Assembly: GCA_015063245.1 (NCBI GenBank)
Contig: SUSV01000001.1
Location: 62,001-126,000, forward strand
Direction of reading: 5' to 3'
Length of the DNA stretch: 64,000 nt
From: Thermoplasmata archaeon
Lineage (GTDB): Archaea > Thermoplasmatota > Thermoplasmata > Methanomassiliicoccales > Methanomethylophilaceae
The notes beneath the pieces were generated by a model. The model made no database searches, was not told where the DNA came from, and saw nothing but the letters and a program-made list of their open reading frames with translations. The position numbers and the translations under genes are program-made. Below are positions 50,441-56,553 of the stretch, in pieces; position 1 is the first letter of the stretch; each line of letters starts with the position of its first letter.

Positions 50441-50532
50441 GGCGAGTGGATATGAATAGGATAGAAAAAAGGATAGGTTCTGACGTTCGTATCCAGCGAA
50501 TCATTATTTACTAAATCATATGATGGTGAATC

Positions 50533-51327: not shown

Positions 51328-51708
51328 TCAGAGCATCTTGAGCTCGCCGGTTATCTTGTCGAGCTCGCTGACAGGCGCAGGTCCCAACCCCATGCATGTC
51401 GTCGTGCCGGGGGCGATCTGCGTCCTGCCAGCATCCGTTATGACAGCGATATGGATCCCGGAGCTGCTGGCGATCTTGCGGTACTCGTCAAGCTCCTCCA
51501 TGGAGTCCACTCTGAGAACGATCTTGGCCTGACCCGAGCTGTGCCAGGCATCGAAGGCTTTCTTGTTCTTCTTCTCTGCGAAGAGGGCGCACTCAACCGC
51601 CGCATGGGCGACCTGGGCAGCAATCTTGCCTTTGCCCATCTTGAGATCGTTCCTGACTAGGACGACGAGCTTGTACTCCTCACTGGGTTTCGAGAATGTG
51701 AAAGCCAT
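51328..51708 (-). CDS. pth2: Peptidyl-tRNA hydrolase, archaeal/eukaryotic type
   Basis: A 126-residue Pth2 that frees tRNA from stalled peptidyl-tRNA. Seen: KLVVLVRNDLKMGKGKIAAQ, VAHAAVECAL, and ITDAGRTQIAPGTTTCMGLG near 90-109, which hold the conserved Lys, His/Asp and Thr residues of the family. Length typical. Confidence 0.96.
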   Translation of the reverse strand: MAFTFSKPSEEYKLVVLVRNDLKMGKGKIAAQVAHAAVECALFAEKKNKKAFDAWHSSGQAKIVLRVDSMEELDEYRKIASSSGIHIAVITDAGRTQIAPGTTTCMGLGPAPVSELDKITGELKML

Positions 51709-51725
51709 GATGACACCGACCCATC

Positions 51726-53057
51726 TCAGATATTTGATTTCTTCTCCATGACGTACACGGGGAAGTCGACCCCCGTTCCGTGGAATGTCACGGTCTTCCC
51801 GTCGCTGGAGACTGCGTATGCCGAGCTGAGCCTTCCGAGTCCGAGATCGGAATCCGTATCGGCCACGGTGAACATCGTCCCGCCGCTATCTATCATCACA
51901 GGCGTCGAGATGAAGCTGTGCGACATGTCCAGGCTGATGGCGGCCACGGTTCTGTCAGGGAGGCCGATCAGCGCCACGGAGACCTTCGGATCTGACAGGT
52001 TGCTGGCCATCAGGGCGCAGAACAGGATGGCACGGTCCTCATCGTCCCCGCACCCCCAGAGAACGGTCTCGGCAGGGTATGCCCAGTAGTCCTCCACACC
52101 ATAGACGGAGCTGTCCGGCACATCCGGGAAGCACTGCTGGACGAAAGAGAGTATGAAGTCCGCATATCCGTCGGATGTGTACGTGTAGCTGAGGTCGCTG
52201 TAAAGCCTCATGAGTTTCCTGTCCAATTCGGATACGGCCTGGCCGAGTGCGATGAAGTCTGCCATGTCCGCCCTGGTCTGCATGTCCATCCTCTCGGTCA
52301 GGTCGTACTCCAGGCAGGTCCTGACATCATCCTGGGACAGGGTGTAGCTGAGCTTGCACGTCTTCCCCTCGTATTCCCATAGGTAAGAGGCATCGAGCTT
52401 GCCGTAGTATGTGCCGAAGCCGCTGTGGATCCTGCATTCGCCGTCGTATGTGTAGCATTCCGCAGTGACGCTGAACCTTCCGACCAGCACATTGCCCCAC
52501 GTGACGGTGCCTATGGCCGAATCATCGCTGTCCCTGATCTTCGTCACCTTCGTGTAGAAGGGATTCTTGGAATTGCTCCCGTTGTACCCTTCGGTCTTGA
52601 CGACCCATATGATCTTATTGTAATCGGATTCCAGGCCCTCGTCCAGCGATATCTGTATCCTCAGGTCCGGGTCGTACAGGGGGAGGACCTTCAGCGTGCC
52701 GTCGGTGAAATCCCCTGTTAGGTCCATGTACCCGTTGGTGGCGATCCTGACGACAATACCTTCGGTCACAGGGGAATCATCATCGGAATCGTCGGAGTTG
52801 TGAGAATCAATGTAATCGAAAATGACAAGGCACCCGGCGAACACTAGGGCGACGACGACAACCGTCATAGCTACCCTCACCTTGGGGCTCTTCATATCGA
52901 TGTTGGTGGCATCCTGGACCTTACGGAGGACCGGTCCGAGGTCGTCGTTGTACTGCCTGATGTCCTGACCGCAGTTGGGGCAGGTATCGTGACCGCTCTC
53001 GAACTCGCTACCGCAGAACGGGCAGAATCCCTTTCCGGTGCGCTTATCCTCAGCCAA
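51726..53057 (-). CDS. Membrane-anchored protein with zinc ribbon and transglutaminase-like outer domain
   Basis: A 443-residue protein from TTG 53057 (GGTGGT precedes it; upstream starts in frame fall inside the PAS gene). Residues 11-31: zinc ribbon (CPFCGSEF, CPNCGQDI), cytoplasmic. Residues about 62-85: transmembrane helix. Then an Asp/Ser-rich spacer and a large extracytoplasmic part whose middle has a transglutaminase-like pattern (LWGCGDDEDRAILFCALMA near 357, then DMSHSF with a possible catalytic His). Last of three co-directional genes with the PAS protein and the membrane regulator. Confidence 0.75.
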   Translation of the reverse strand: MAEDKRTGKGFCPFCGSEFESGHDTCPNCGQDIRQYNDDLGPVLRKVQDATNIDMKSPKVRVAMTVVVVALVFAGCLVIFDYIDSHNSDDSDDDSPVTEGIVVRIATNGYMDLTGDFTDGTLKVLPLYDPDLRIQISLDEGLESDYNKIIWVVKTEGYNGSNSKNPFYTKVTKIRDSDDSAIGTVTWGNVLVGRFSVTAECYTYDGECRIHSGFGTYYGKLDASYLWEYEGKTCKLSYTLSQDDVRTCLEYDLTERMDMQTRADMADFIALGQAVSELDRKLMRLYSDLSYTYTSDGYADFILSFVQQCFPDVPDSSVYGVEDYWAYPAETVLWGCGDDEDRAILFCALMASNLSDPKVSVALIGLPDRTVAAISLDMSHSFISTPVMIDSGGTMFTVADTDSDLGLGRLSSAYAVSSDGKTVTFHGTGVDFPVYVMEKKSNI

Positions 53058-53067
53058 GGGACCACCG

Positions 53068-53439
53068 TCAGAAGTTGTATCTCGGCGTATCATCCCTCTT
53101 ACGGGATTCGTGCTTCTCGTAGTATCCGATGAGCTCTCCGTCATCGTCACGGAGCGCGACCATGTAGACATCCTTGTCGCGCCTCTCATCGTAGAATGTG
53201 TGGATCTTGTTGTGGTCCTTGCTCTCCGCGAACCATTTGGTTACTTTCGTTATGAGCTCGCTGGACCTGGGGTTATGGCAGTCATGGATGTTCCTGCCGA
53301 GAAGTATCTCCCCGCCGTGCCCGCTGTAGTATTCGATCCCTGTCGGGTTCATGTAGACTATCGTATCCGACGCGTCGCATACCACTACGGGCATATCATC
53401 CTGGTCGATGATGCTCTTGAACAGCTGATCGAGCGTCAT
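53068..53439 (-). CDS. Single PAS-domain protein
   Basis: A 123-residue stand-alone PAS domain: DMPVVVCDASDTIVYMNPTG, GGEILLGRNIHDCHNP near 42-57, and YMVALRDDDGELIGYYEKHE near 92-111. The GRNIHDCHNP loop resembles haem- or ligand-binding PAS variants (DUF438-type). It lacks an output domain. It overlaps the regulator gene upstream by one base (TGATG), so it may be its sensor subunit. Confidence 0.85.
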   Translation of the reverse strand: MTLDQLFKSIIDQDDMPVVVCDASDTIVYMNPTGIEYYSGHGGEILLGRNIHDCHNPRSSELITKVTKWFAESKDHNKIHTFYDERRDKDVYMVALRDDDGELIGYYEKHESRKRDDTPRYNF

Positions 53440-55871
53440 CAGTAGAGGTCCCTGTCCTCGCAGACGAGCTTGATGTCTCCCGCGGGAGGTACGTCGAGGG
53501 AGAAGCAGTTGTCGTAATCCAGTTGCACGGGTACCCCGTCGGCATAGATGTCGACGTTCCTGTCGCCAACCAGCCTGAGCTGTATCGATGTGACGCCCTT
53601 CTCAAGCTGTATCTGTCCGGAGACGATCTGGTCGCCGAAATAGTAGGATTCCTTGCCGAGGTCGATGACCTTCGTCTCCTGAGGCATCTCCTTGACCTCG
53701 AGCTCGCTGAAGTTGAGGCTGGTGCATGTGTATTCGCTGAGGAGCCTGTCGGTCTCGGCCGCCGATGCGGATTCGATGTAGTATCCGTAATCCGCAAAGA
53801 CCCTAATCTTGTTGTTGGCGGGAACGTAGAGTCCCTCGGACTTCTTCTCGTACTCCTCGGAGTCTATGAACCTGACCGACGAATCGTCGGAGATGGGCTT
53901 GCTGGAGCTGAACAGCGAGAACGAGCAGTTCAGCAGCTCCTTGTCGGAGATGTCGAAGAGACGCTCGATGTGGAGGTCCGATGTCATTGTGATGGAATAG
54001 CTCCCGTCCTCTGAAGGCTGCAGCAGGTACGCTATGCCGTCGTGCACGTAACCCATGTCCGCCGCTTCGGAGACGGAGAGCGTCAGGACGGATCCCGAAC
54101 GCACATCGTACGGATAGGTGAGCTCGCGGCCGTCGACATCGTACACGCTGATCCCGAGGCCGTCATCCACGGTCAGGCTGACCGTTCCTGCCTCTACGTC
54201 CGTTCCGGAGTCCGTGATGCTGAACACCAGGATGCCTGTGAGCATGATGAGGAACACCGCCGCGGTGATGTACCTGACGGTCCTGAGCGGTTTGCCGTCG
54301 GTCTTCTGGCTGCGGTTGAGAAGCGCCGTCTTGACCGACGATGTCCGCTTCTTCGCGGCAGGGGCCGCGAGGTTCTCGACCTTGACTCCCTTGACAGGGG
54401 TCATGCTGAGCGCGGGATAGATCTCCTTGAACGAGATGTTCTCCTCCTCCACGCTCCTGACGAAGATTCCGCTGCTGGCCATCTCGAGCCCCTGGTGGGC
54501 CATTCCCTTGATGAACGTCATGGCCTGGGCCATTCCGGATGCGGGGTCGCTTCCGGAGATTCCGATGGTGAGCGGGTAGACTGATACGATGCTGAGCGAC
54601 AGACCGATGGTCTGGGCTATATCGGACATCTGTCCGAAGTAGGTGTCGAAGTTGCCCTTGGTGTCGGCCGAGCCCATGGCCCTCATGTACTTGGCACCGA
54701 GGACGACCATGATGTACTCCGAGTCGAACCCGAACTTCTTGAGACAGGCCATGGTGTAGAGCAGCAGGCCCTCCATGAAGCCGCCTTCCTTGTCCTTGGC
54801 CGCATCCAGGGTGTTGCGGATGTCCTCGTTATCCGCCGATATGGGGCGCGACCTCTTGGCGAGGATCGAGCACGCGAGACCGTAGTATGCGGCTCCCGAC
54901 TCGGCGTAGAAAACCGAGATGACCCCCTCCTCGACCATCCTGAGAAGGTTCGAGGTGATCGTGGACCTGGGGGAGTCGACCCTGTTGACGATGTCGGTGA
55001 TGCACAGGGGCCTCTCGTAGATCGCATCGACGATCTCCATCTGGACGTCGCTGGTCATGAGTCCGGCGTTCCCATCCAGGTCTACCACGAGGAAACGGTG
55101 GTCGTCCCTGTGGTGGAGGCTGCTGTTGAGGTAGGGCGGCTGAGCCTTCTCCGTGCGCTCCATCGTGACCTTTATGGCGGTCTCGGAGCCGTTGAAGTCC
55201 TCCAGCGAGGCGATCTTGTAGGTCCTGCCTGTGGAGTTCTCTATGAGTCTGATGATGAAATGCATCATCATGTCCGATTTGGACCTGATGGTGTCGTCAC
55301 CCGTCACCACGAGTGTGAGGGGCGAGAACGAGAATACAGTGAAGTTGAAGCCTGTGAGCCTTGAGAAGATGTCCCTGACGTCGAGGATCGCATCCTCGAG
55401 GTTCGCTTTCTTCGAGGGGATGGAGTCTGCAAGGTCCTCGGCATATTTGCGCTTGATAGGGCTGACGTCAAGTCCGATCTCGGAGACGTAGCAGTCCAGC
55501 ATGTTCGCCAGCGAGGACAGACCGGAATAGTTCCTCAGCGGATCCTCGAACGTCTTCTGGGAGGCGCATCTCGCCCTGTCATCTGTCTCTTCTGAGCGGG
55601 CGAGGACGATGGCGCTTGTTGAATAGTAGACTGTCTTCTTGTCCGTCTCTGGTTTGATCCTGTCGACTATGCCGGAATCCGCCATCTTGTCGATTATGAA
55701 ATGGAGCGATGAAGAGCTGAGCCCGAGCTCAGAAGTGAGGTCGCTGGGCCTCTTCATCCCGTTCTTCAGGCTTTTGTAGACTGCTATCTGCAGCGGGTCT
55801 GTAAGGGGTATGATACCCTTGTCCGTCAATAGGATGCAGAAATTGCGCAGATATTCATCCTGTGCTCCCAT
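53439..55871 (-). CDS. Membrane-bound transcription regulator with two winged-helix domains
   Basis: An 810-residue protein. Residues about 20-85: ArsR-like winged helix (LQIAVYKSLKNGMKRPSDLT, then ELGLSSSSLHFIIDKM). Residues about 265-340: a second one (DIVNRVDSPRSTITSNLLRM, VISVFYAESGAAYYGL). Residues about 530-552: one transmembrane helix. Residues about 555-810: an extracytoplasmic beta-rich domain. This ToxR-like layout fits a one-component sensor that keeps its DNA-binding part at the membrane. Followed by a PAS protein and a transglutaminase-like membrane protein. Duplicated-segment similarity between residues 85-250 and 340-500 (both include repeats of a methanogen regulatory-domain pattern) is likely but not tested. 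Confidence 0.78.
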   Translation of the reverse strand: MGAQDEYLRNFCILLTDKGIIPLTDPLQIAVYKSLKNGMKRPSDLTSELGLSSSSLHFIIDKMADSGIVDRIKPETDKKTVYYSTSAIVLARSEETDDRARCASQKTFEDPLRNYSGLSSLANMLDCYVSEIGLDVSPIKRKYAEDLADSIPSKKANLEDAILDVRDIFSRLTGFNFTVFSFSPLTLVVTGDDTIRSKSDMMMHFIIRLIENSTGRTYKIASLEDFNGSETAIKVTMERTEKAQPPYLNSSLHHRDDHRFLVVDLDGNAGLMTSDVQMEIVDAIYERPLCITDIVNRVDSPRSTITSNLLRMVEEGVISVFYAESGAAYYGLACSILAKRSRPISADNEDIRNTLDAAKDKEGGFMEGLLLYTMACLKKFGFDSEYIMVVLGAKYMRAMGSADTKGNFDTYFGQMSDIAQTIGLSLSIVSVYPLTIGISGSDPASGMAQAMTFIKGMAHQGLEMASSGIFVRSVEEENISFKEIYPALSMTPVKGVKVENLAAPAAKKRTSSVKTALLNRSQKTDGKPLRTVRYITAAVFLIMLTGILVFSITDSGTDVEAGTVSLTVDDGLGISVYDVDGRELTYPYDVRSGSVLTLSVSEAADMGYVHDGIAYLLQPSEDGSYSITMTSDLHIERLFDISDKELLNCSFSLFSSSKPISDDSSVRFIDSEEYEKKSEGLYVPANNKIRVFADYGYYIESASAAETDRLLSEYTCTSLNFSELEVKEMPQETKVIDLGKESYYFGDQIVSGQIQLEKGVTSIQLRLVGDRNVDIYADGVPVQLDYDNCFSLDVPPAGDIKLVCEDRDLY

Positions 55872-55929
55872 ATGCGATAGTATCGACTCGGAGTATATTT
55901 AATAGCGCGCGTTTTTGTCAGTCTTTGTA

Positions 55930-56553
55930 TTAAAGGCGGGCCTTGAGGATCAGGTCCCTGAGGTCATGTGCCGCTTTCCTGACATCATCCTGTGCGACGA
56001 CAGCGGATACGACAGCCGCAGAGTCGGCACCTGCACGGATGACATCCTGGACATTGCCCTGGTTGATGCCCCCTATCGCGACGATCGGGATGTCCACAGC
56101 CTGGCTGATCTTGTACAGCATGTCGAGTCCCAGGCCCTGTGCCGCATCGAGCTTCGTGGTCGTGGTGAAGATGGAACCGACGCCGACGTATGTAGCGCCG
56201 TTCTCCTTCGCCTCGATCGCCTCCTCCACTGTGGTGACCGATATCCCGATTATGGCATCGTCGCCGAGGATCTTGACAGCCTCCTTCAGCGGCATATCCG
56301 ACTGACCCAGATGCACTCCGTCCGCTCCCGAGTCGAGAGCGACCTTGACGTTGTCGTTCACCACGAAGAACCTGTTCATCTCGTCTGCGATCTTCTGAAT
56401 CTCCTTGGCATCCTTCAGCATGTCCTCGTAGGAGGCGTTCTTCATTCTGAGCTGAACGATGTCGGCTCCCCCTTCATATGCCATCCTGGCTATTTCGACA
56501 TTGGAGCGTCCTTTGGACAATGATTCATCTGTCACGACATAGAGATCGAACAT
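55930..56553 (-). CDS. thiE: Thiamine-phosphate synthase
   Basis: A 207-residue ThiE that joins HMP-diphosphate and thiazole phosphate. Seen: DLYVVTDESLSKGRSN at the start, VQLRMKNASYEDML near 33-46, FFVVNDNVKVALDSGADGVH, LGQSDMP, YVGVGSIFTTTTK and PIVAIGGINQGNV. ATG 56553 is preferred; the longer frame from 56742 adds 63 unrelated residues antisense to the FKBP gene. A second TMP synthase module (ThiN) sits in thiDN at 58.9 kb. Confidence 0.95.
   Translation of the reverse strand: MFDLYVVTDESLSKGRSNVEIARMAYEGGADIVQLRMKNASYEDMLKDAKEIQKIADEMNRFFVVNDNVKVALDSGADGVHLGQSDMPLKEAVKILGDDAIIGISVTTVEEAIEAKENGATYVGVGSIFTTTTKLDAAQGLGLDMLYKISQAVDIPIVAIGGINQGNVQDVIRAGADSAAVVSAVVAQDDVRKAAHDLRDLILKARL

Follow-up and report, generated by a model that had tools for sequence, protein, structure and literature searches.

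A candidate archaeal co-component regulator: a membrane-anchored tandem MsvR-type protein linked to a cysteine-less transglutaminase-like partner

Can a methanogenic archaeon sense its surroundings through a pair of membrane proteins, one of which binds DNA directly, and from which parts would such a pair be made? The locus that raises this question lies in a stretch of 64,000 nucleotides (nt; G000:C5:62001-126000, hereafter the window) of a 1.49-Mb archaeal assembly (G000, the window genome), whose organism is taken as a methanogen because methyl-CoM reductase alpha is encoded in its genome. A sequence-only reading of the window had proposed a ToxR-like three-gene surface-sensing system, composed of a transmembrane regulator (REG), a lone PAS-domain protein (PAS) and a membrane-anchored zinc-ribbon protein with a transglutaminase-like outer domain (TG). 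A conserved two-gene REG-TG pair with an optional PAS gene replaces this three-gene system. Most likely, REG-TG is an archaeal regulator of transcription in the membrane, of co-component type, and in gut-type methanogens it looks like a home-grown counterpart of bacterial ToxR/ToxS-type surface sensors. We consider it probable that REG is a transmembrane regulator built from MsvR-type units, that TG is its catalytically dead membrane partner, and that the two serve surface sensing.

The search set consisted of the window genome and 99 relatives, and REG was regarded as full-length where the match covered at least 640 residues. Full-length REG was found in the window genome and in 20 of the 30 genus mates, and in none of the 69 other genomes. 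It is not a chance open reading frame (ORF), because it is 41-70% identical over its whole length in these 20 genus mates. In the window and in all 20 relatives, TG is the next co-directional gene to REG (gap of -76 to +107 nt, or 433 nt with PAS between). No full-length TG ortholog was detected in the ten genus mates lacking full-length REG, some of whose assemblies are incomplete; the TG matches listed for these ten are weak, partial alignments of the query (best E 3.2e-15). Neighbourhood conservation thus upheld the linkage of REG and TG and not that of PAS, which stands between them in three of the 21 loci.

REG is predicted to consist of two complete units, each a winged helix-turn-helix (wHTH) followed by a V4R-like domain and related to MsvR, the methanogen-specific V4R regulator of redox responses, on a membrane anchor. 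Pfam saw the winged helices alone, as MarR (residues 40-81, E=1.8e-6) and ArsR/HTH_5 (277-319, E=5.6e-6), which confirms the two winged helices (residues ~28-90 and ~272-345) recognised earlier; the V4R-like domain on each had been missed. MarR_2 and HTH_5 match all 22 aligned members of the REG family. The NCBIfam MsvR model (NF053755) matches REG in two stretches (E 3.6e-16, best 272-439), and a scan of the window genome with the MsvR profile matched the two halves separately, over profile positions 3-182 and 10-182 of 236 (unit 1 at G000:C5:117302-117826, E 9.5e-8). Since this family scan, at E <= 0.001, is unspecific alone (matches in 14 of 14 control genomes, one over the cut-off), the assignment of the units is based on whole-unit coverage rather than on its E-values. 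Comparison by hhalign relates units 1 and 2 to canonical MsvR of the order (prob 98.2 and 95.5), to the single-unit MsvR-like paralogs of the archaeal family of the window organism (99.4 and 96.0), and to each other (92.0). The fold evidence points weakly in the same direction. AlphaFold models, built from two sequences each, reached a mean predicted local distance difference test score (pLDDT) of 40 for REG and TG alike, with just parts of REG unit 1 at ~70. In a Foldseek search with this low-confidence REG model, the rows shown are nearly all wHTH proteins, the best PDB entries being ArsR/MarR folds at E 2e-3, with no PDB match at E <= 1e-3.

REG is not MsvR proper by any of the cysteines, promoter box or score tested. 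It differs from MsvR in having two units per chain, a transmembrane (TM) anchor and an outer domain, in lacking the V4R cysteines and an upstream TTCGN7-9CGAA box, and in its score of 59.6 bits, far below the NCBIfam equivalog cut-off of 220 bits. In the MsvR of M. acetivorans, the V4R cysteines are C206, C232 and C240, at spacings of 26 and 8 (PMC3729527). With the same spacing, canonical MsvR proteins of sister families carry the first and third cysteine in 18 of 18 cases and the second in 11 of these, whereas all three positions are non-cysteine in 42 of 42 REG units. None of eight single-unit MsvR-like proteins from the family of the window organism (L122-L129) keeps any of the three. This comparison used 26 of 30 MsvR loci, the best 30 of those listed (L116 and L118 gave no frame by the rule applied; L120 and L121 are cut short). 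From their spacing, we presume that the MsvR cysteines form the same zinc site as in MopR-type V4R domains. MopR-type V4R domains bind zinc by three cysteines and one glutamate (PMC10715001). Pfam V4R (PF02830) recognises canonical MsvR L100 and L102; it fails on REG and also on the single-unit MsvR-like paralog encoded in the window genome (C9:219038-219730, L128). Doubling of the unit is not specific to REG, because the window genome encodes a second tandem MsvR-like protein of ~500 residues (C5:296776-298170, L095); similar tandem proteins were found in other genera of the family. As a side observation, the MsvR-like regulators of this family seem to lack the V4R redox cysteines, which are kept in sister families.

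One strong TM segment is present in 21 of 21 REG orthologs, in line with the single TM helix and outer domain described earlier. Summed over these orthologs, the 15 residues flanking the REG helix contain 99 lysines plus arginines (K+R) and 21 aspartates plus glutamates (D+E) on the N-terminal side, against 0 and 67 on the C-terminal side; the corresponding sums for TG are 80 and 38, against 3 and 81. Both proteins are predicted to be single-pass with the N-terminus inside, because K+R are skewed to the N-terminal side of the helix. REG evolves unevenly. Compared with the window copy, 20 orthologs have a median identity of 0.59 for wHTH1, 0.50 for V4R1, 0.77 for wHTH2 (the best-conserved part), 0.66 for V4R2, 0.56 for the linker with the TM helix, and 0.24 for the outer domain, which has no Pfam match. 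The three parts of TG give 0.28, 0.28 and 0.32. No similarity between the outer domains of REG and TG was found by hhalign (prob 0.5 and 2.3). A diverged REG row (L086) was excluded from the hhalign, cysteine, topology and identity analyses, and L087 was never in the REG alignment.

The zinc-ribbon cysteines of TG (CPxC...CPxCG) are invariant in 21 of 21 orthologs, and Transglut_core matches 14 of the 21 (best E 5e-5), which bears out the zinc-ribbon and transglutaminase-like assignment; the window copy alone does not reach Pfam Transglut_core. In the PDB, the TG profile matches 4u65, a putative cysteine protease (E 2.2e-5), and 4fgo, a periplasmic protein (E 0.01) that we take to be LapG. The window copy matches NCBIfam LapG at E 0.0028. 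The earlier domain list had missed the loss of the catalytic cysteine: the nucleophilic residue is replaced in all 21 REG-linked copies (D in 10, S in 6, Q and T in 2 each, E in 1), whereas GDCED is kept in all 20 unlinked homologs with an aligned motif (nine, L054, L056, L057 and L059-L064, plus a further 11). LapG-like and transglutaminase-core exoproteins thus share a similar profile with TG, which differs from them by this replacement. Several of the loci L077-L081, L084, L088 and L089 also encode, on the other strand and close to thiM or tgtA, a second, larger transglutaminase-like protein of ~570-670 residues with intact GDCED.

Upstream of REG, a TATA-like box (TATTAAATATA in the window) occurs ~28 nt before the ATG across the orthologs, a distance that suggests leaderless transcripts. 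In 21 promoters, the near-identical L068 and L085 being left out of the alignment, a conserved element with the consensus TcaCACAtnttCCGAgCA stands at a distance of mostly 60-62 nt upstream of the ATG. This element is a candidate operator. Its 18-base model has a log-likelihood ratio of 130.2 against a mean of 54.9 in 12 shuffles (standard deviation 3.2, maximum 60.1), a figure inflated by the kinship of the sequences. The element is kept at 41-50% REG protein identity, is weaker in G001 and G002, and fits poorly in L072, L074 and L082. A search for binding sites near the operon yielded this candidate and not the known MsvR box, which was not found upstream of REG; the closest match to that box within the window lies 5 kb off, at 50486. 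That match, near thiM, was rejected as a site, as it is not present at thiM in relatives and the window holds six matches to the box against 3.55 expected by chance. The element also precedes an apparently orthologous gene in L131 (G014) and L146 (G015). We take this gene to be ribose-1,5-bisphosphate-isomerase-like.

REG-TG can be compared with MsvR and with bacterial co-component systems in turn. REG shares with MsvR the order of wHTH and V4R, a candidate element at its own promoter, and a tandem that could imitate the MsvR homodimer (PMC3729527). With ToxR/ToxS and VtrA/VtrC it shares a wHTH inside, a single TM helix, an outer domain, and a further membrane-anchored protein encoded next to it, downstream and in the same direction (PMC9214523). 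The fast evolution of the outer domains likewise follows the pattern described for co-component cassettes (PMC9214523). The label ToxR-like was therefore apt for the build and not for the descent: REG-TG is archaeal, its units are of MarR/ArsR/MsvR rather than ToxR type, and Pfam matched no ToxR/CadC-type family to any of the 22 aligned REG proteins. TG differs from the partners in those systems by its zinc ribbon and cysteine-less transglutaminase-like domain, with no evidence of a lipocalin; the Transglut_core matches in 14 of 21 copies speak against one in that part, and the TG model, at a mean pLDDT of 40, is too poor to judge its beta domain against the lipocalin-like partner, in an obligate heterodimer, of the ToxRS/VtrAC superfamily. 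By its tested DNA-binding domains REG-TG is outside the ToxRS superfamily, and it would work like a co-component system with MsvR parts. REG also meets the definition of transmembrane transcription regulators (TTRs), namely a predicted DNA-binding domain and a predicted TM segment in one protein (PMC10269533). The Sulfolobus one-component regulators ArnR and ArnR1 are, like REG, membrane-bound archaeal transcription factors, and their abstract, which is the basis of this comparison, mentions neither an MsvR tandem nor a partner (PMC6396743). Partnered membrane-anchored regulators are known from bacteria; no archaeal one was found in the literature searched, a limited negative as subscription journals were mostly outside it; within the same literature, no title or abstract describes the REG-TG pair. 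The paper that defines co-component systems never uses the word archaea (PMC9214523).

The following mechanism would account for these features. REG would have originated from an MsvR-type wHTH+V4R unit that was duplicated in tandem, lost its V4R cysteines, and was extended by a TM helix and outer domain. TG would derive from a zinc-ribbon-anchored transglutaminase-like exoprotein that lost its cysteine and became a binding or structural subunit. We infer that the two lie side by side in the membrane, both N-in/C-out, and contact each other. An extracellular ligand or surface polymer would be bound by the outer domain of REG, by the TG domain devoid of its cysteine, or by both, and the signal would pass through the TM helices to both wHTH units. 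MsvR is a homodimer in solution (PMC3729527), which the two units in one chain could imitate. DNA binding near a promoter would then be altered, probably including that of REG itself through the element just upstream of the TATA box. If this is correct, a two-gene partnered-regulator design has evolved more than once from unrelated parts, and REG-TG would be a candidate for surface sensing in this methanogen group that is open to test. TG would be a pseudo-enzyme that lost its catalysis in association with its linkage to a regulator. The route by duplication, loss of redox cysteines and anchoring may have left possible intermediates: at the thiE slot, G001 has no TG but encodes a soluble REG relative of 465 residues, and G002 has a relative with a short outer part. 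More tentatively, archaea may have built a ToxRS-style co-component receptor independently, the methanogen redox repressor MsvR having been doubled into a pseudo-dimer within one chain, de-cysteined and anchored while a transglutaminase-like exoenzyme became its dead surface-sensor subunit.

Several results weigh against a sensing pair, and some of them would suit an ordinary single-protein transmembrane regulator whose co-transcribed neighbour TG is a bystander held by general synteny. Nearly every locus has the same flanking genes: in 19 of 20 relatives REG is preceded within 160 nt by thiE or by a thiE-like gene of 31-34% identity, and in 19 of 20 PTH2 follows downstream at no more than 100 nt. 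Because the whole neighbourhood is syntenic, linkage of REG and TG alone is modest evidence and partly inherited. Co-evolution of the REG outer domain is moderate with the TG beta domain (partial r 0.46) and weak with the transglutaminase-like domain proper (partial r 0.15). TTRs are also common in archaea, with 1,384 in 367 of 404 species (PMC10269533). A bystander role for TG is nonetheless somewhat unlikely. TG orthologs are confined to genus mates that have full-length REG (all 20 of these, and 0 of the 10 others), the cysteine is lost in every REG-linked copy and kept in unlinked homologs, and the pair remains intact in L072, where thiE is 3.8 kb from REG, and in L073, where PTH2 is missing. 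Other points that tell against the pair acting as proposed are the active-site histidine kept in five of 21 TG copies (L077-L081, judged by eye), so that residual or altered TG chemistry may exist; the diverged TM-bearing REG of G002, a genome 61% complete, which has no TG; and the scarcity of the element pattern at other promoters in eight genomes, with 20 matches (four of them REG itself) against 11 for the reversed control, a weak excess.

It is also conceivable that the V4R-like domains of REG sense intracellular redox state or small ligands as in MsvR, that the anchor just positions the protein, and that TG senses something else. The V4R-like domains are better kept than the outer domain, as their identities given above indicate, and sensor V4R domains of MopR type bind phenols (PMC10715001); the absence of all three cysteines from every REG unit and the failure of Pfam V4R on REG, when it recognises canonical MsvR, make this unlikely. 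Regulated proteolysis is very unlikely, though precedented: a surface signal would lead to cleavage of REG, its soluble tandem-MsvR half would act in the cytosol, and TG would protect or expose the outer domain. The soluble relative in G001 implies that the cytosolic half can stand alone, and in Vibrio cholerae TcpH inhibits proteolysis of TcpP (PMC11323476), but no protease gene is among the named neighbours. A sensing REG-TG pair is thus the reading we retain. The coordinates of its parts and of the neighbouring features are given in Table 1.

Table 1. Features of the REG-TG locus (positions in the window).
Feature	Position	Strand	Basis
REG, membrane-anchored tandem-MsvR regulator gene, 810 aa	53439-55871	-	ORF, Pfam, NCBIfam, genome search
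REG unit 1 (residues 10-255), predicted MarR/ArsR-type winged helix + V4R-like domain	55107-55844	-	hhalign, MsvR hidden Markov model
REG unit 2 (residues 256-500), predicted ArsR-type winged helix + V4R-like domain	54372-55106	-	NCBIfam, hhalign
REG TM helix (residues 532-552), predicted N-in/C-out	54216-54278	-	charge rule
REG outer domain (residues 557-810), predicted mostly beta (low-confidence model), fast-evolving	53442-54203	-	
TG, zinc ribbon-TM-outer protein with cysteine-less transglutaminase-like domain, 443 aa, TTG start	51726-53057	-	ortholog alignment, profiles
TG zinc ribbon CPFC...CPNCG (residues 11-33), cytosolic side	52959-53027	-	ortholog alignment, profiles
TG TM helix (residues 60-80), predicted N-in/C-out	52818-52880	-	charge rule
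TG dead active-site motif GCGDDED (GDCED in unlinked homologs)	52035-52055	-	alignments
Candidate operator, conserved in orthologs (consensus TcaCACAtnttCCGAgCA), preceding the REG TATA box	55915-55932	-	promoter motif model
TATA box TATTAAATATA, ~28 nt before ATG	55894-55904	-	
PAS, lone-domain protein, 123 aa, accessory	53068-53439	-	Pfam PAS_4
PTH2	51328-51708	-	Pfam

Leftward from thiE, the genes follow in the order thiE, REG, PAS, TG and PTH2, all on the minus strand (thiE and PTH2 by Pfam). The plus-strand gene beyond PTH2 is one we take to be thiM. The interval 53057-55871 assigned earlier to three genes leaves out the third of them, TG. The genes had also been described as overlapping, which holds for PAS, whose ATG overlaps the REG stop codon, and not for TG, which starts at a TTG (53057) 10 nt past the PAS stop, where its orthologs have an ATG.

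PAS is an accessory to the conserved pair. Its single domain was recognised as before (Pfam PAS_4, E=3.4e-7). The three loci where it stands between REG and TG are those of the window, G003 and G012, and among 41 genomes searched it occurs elsewhere, unlinked, in G007, G018 and G019. In two of the latter three, the unlinked copy adjoins a shared type of neighbour gene, presumably GTP cyclohydrolase-like.

A few further candidates and irregular loci were encountered. An ARAGORN call of a tRNA-Arg (tct) at 54850-54945 (-), within REG, is without Rfam support and lies in conserved coding sequence; it is probably a false positive. A 1218-residue ORF in L079 that resembled a fusion of regulator and partner was found to be an overlapping open frame instead. 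In G002, the diverged REG frame (L086, 5211-7634) continues into PTH2, as a fusion or an assembly error. Pyrrolysine is known in the order of the window organism. The REG relatives in L088 (G018) and L089 (G026) have several in-frame TAG codons in otherwise open frames; reading of TAG as an amino acid there is not conclusive, as long antisense frames hold TAGs too.

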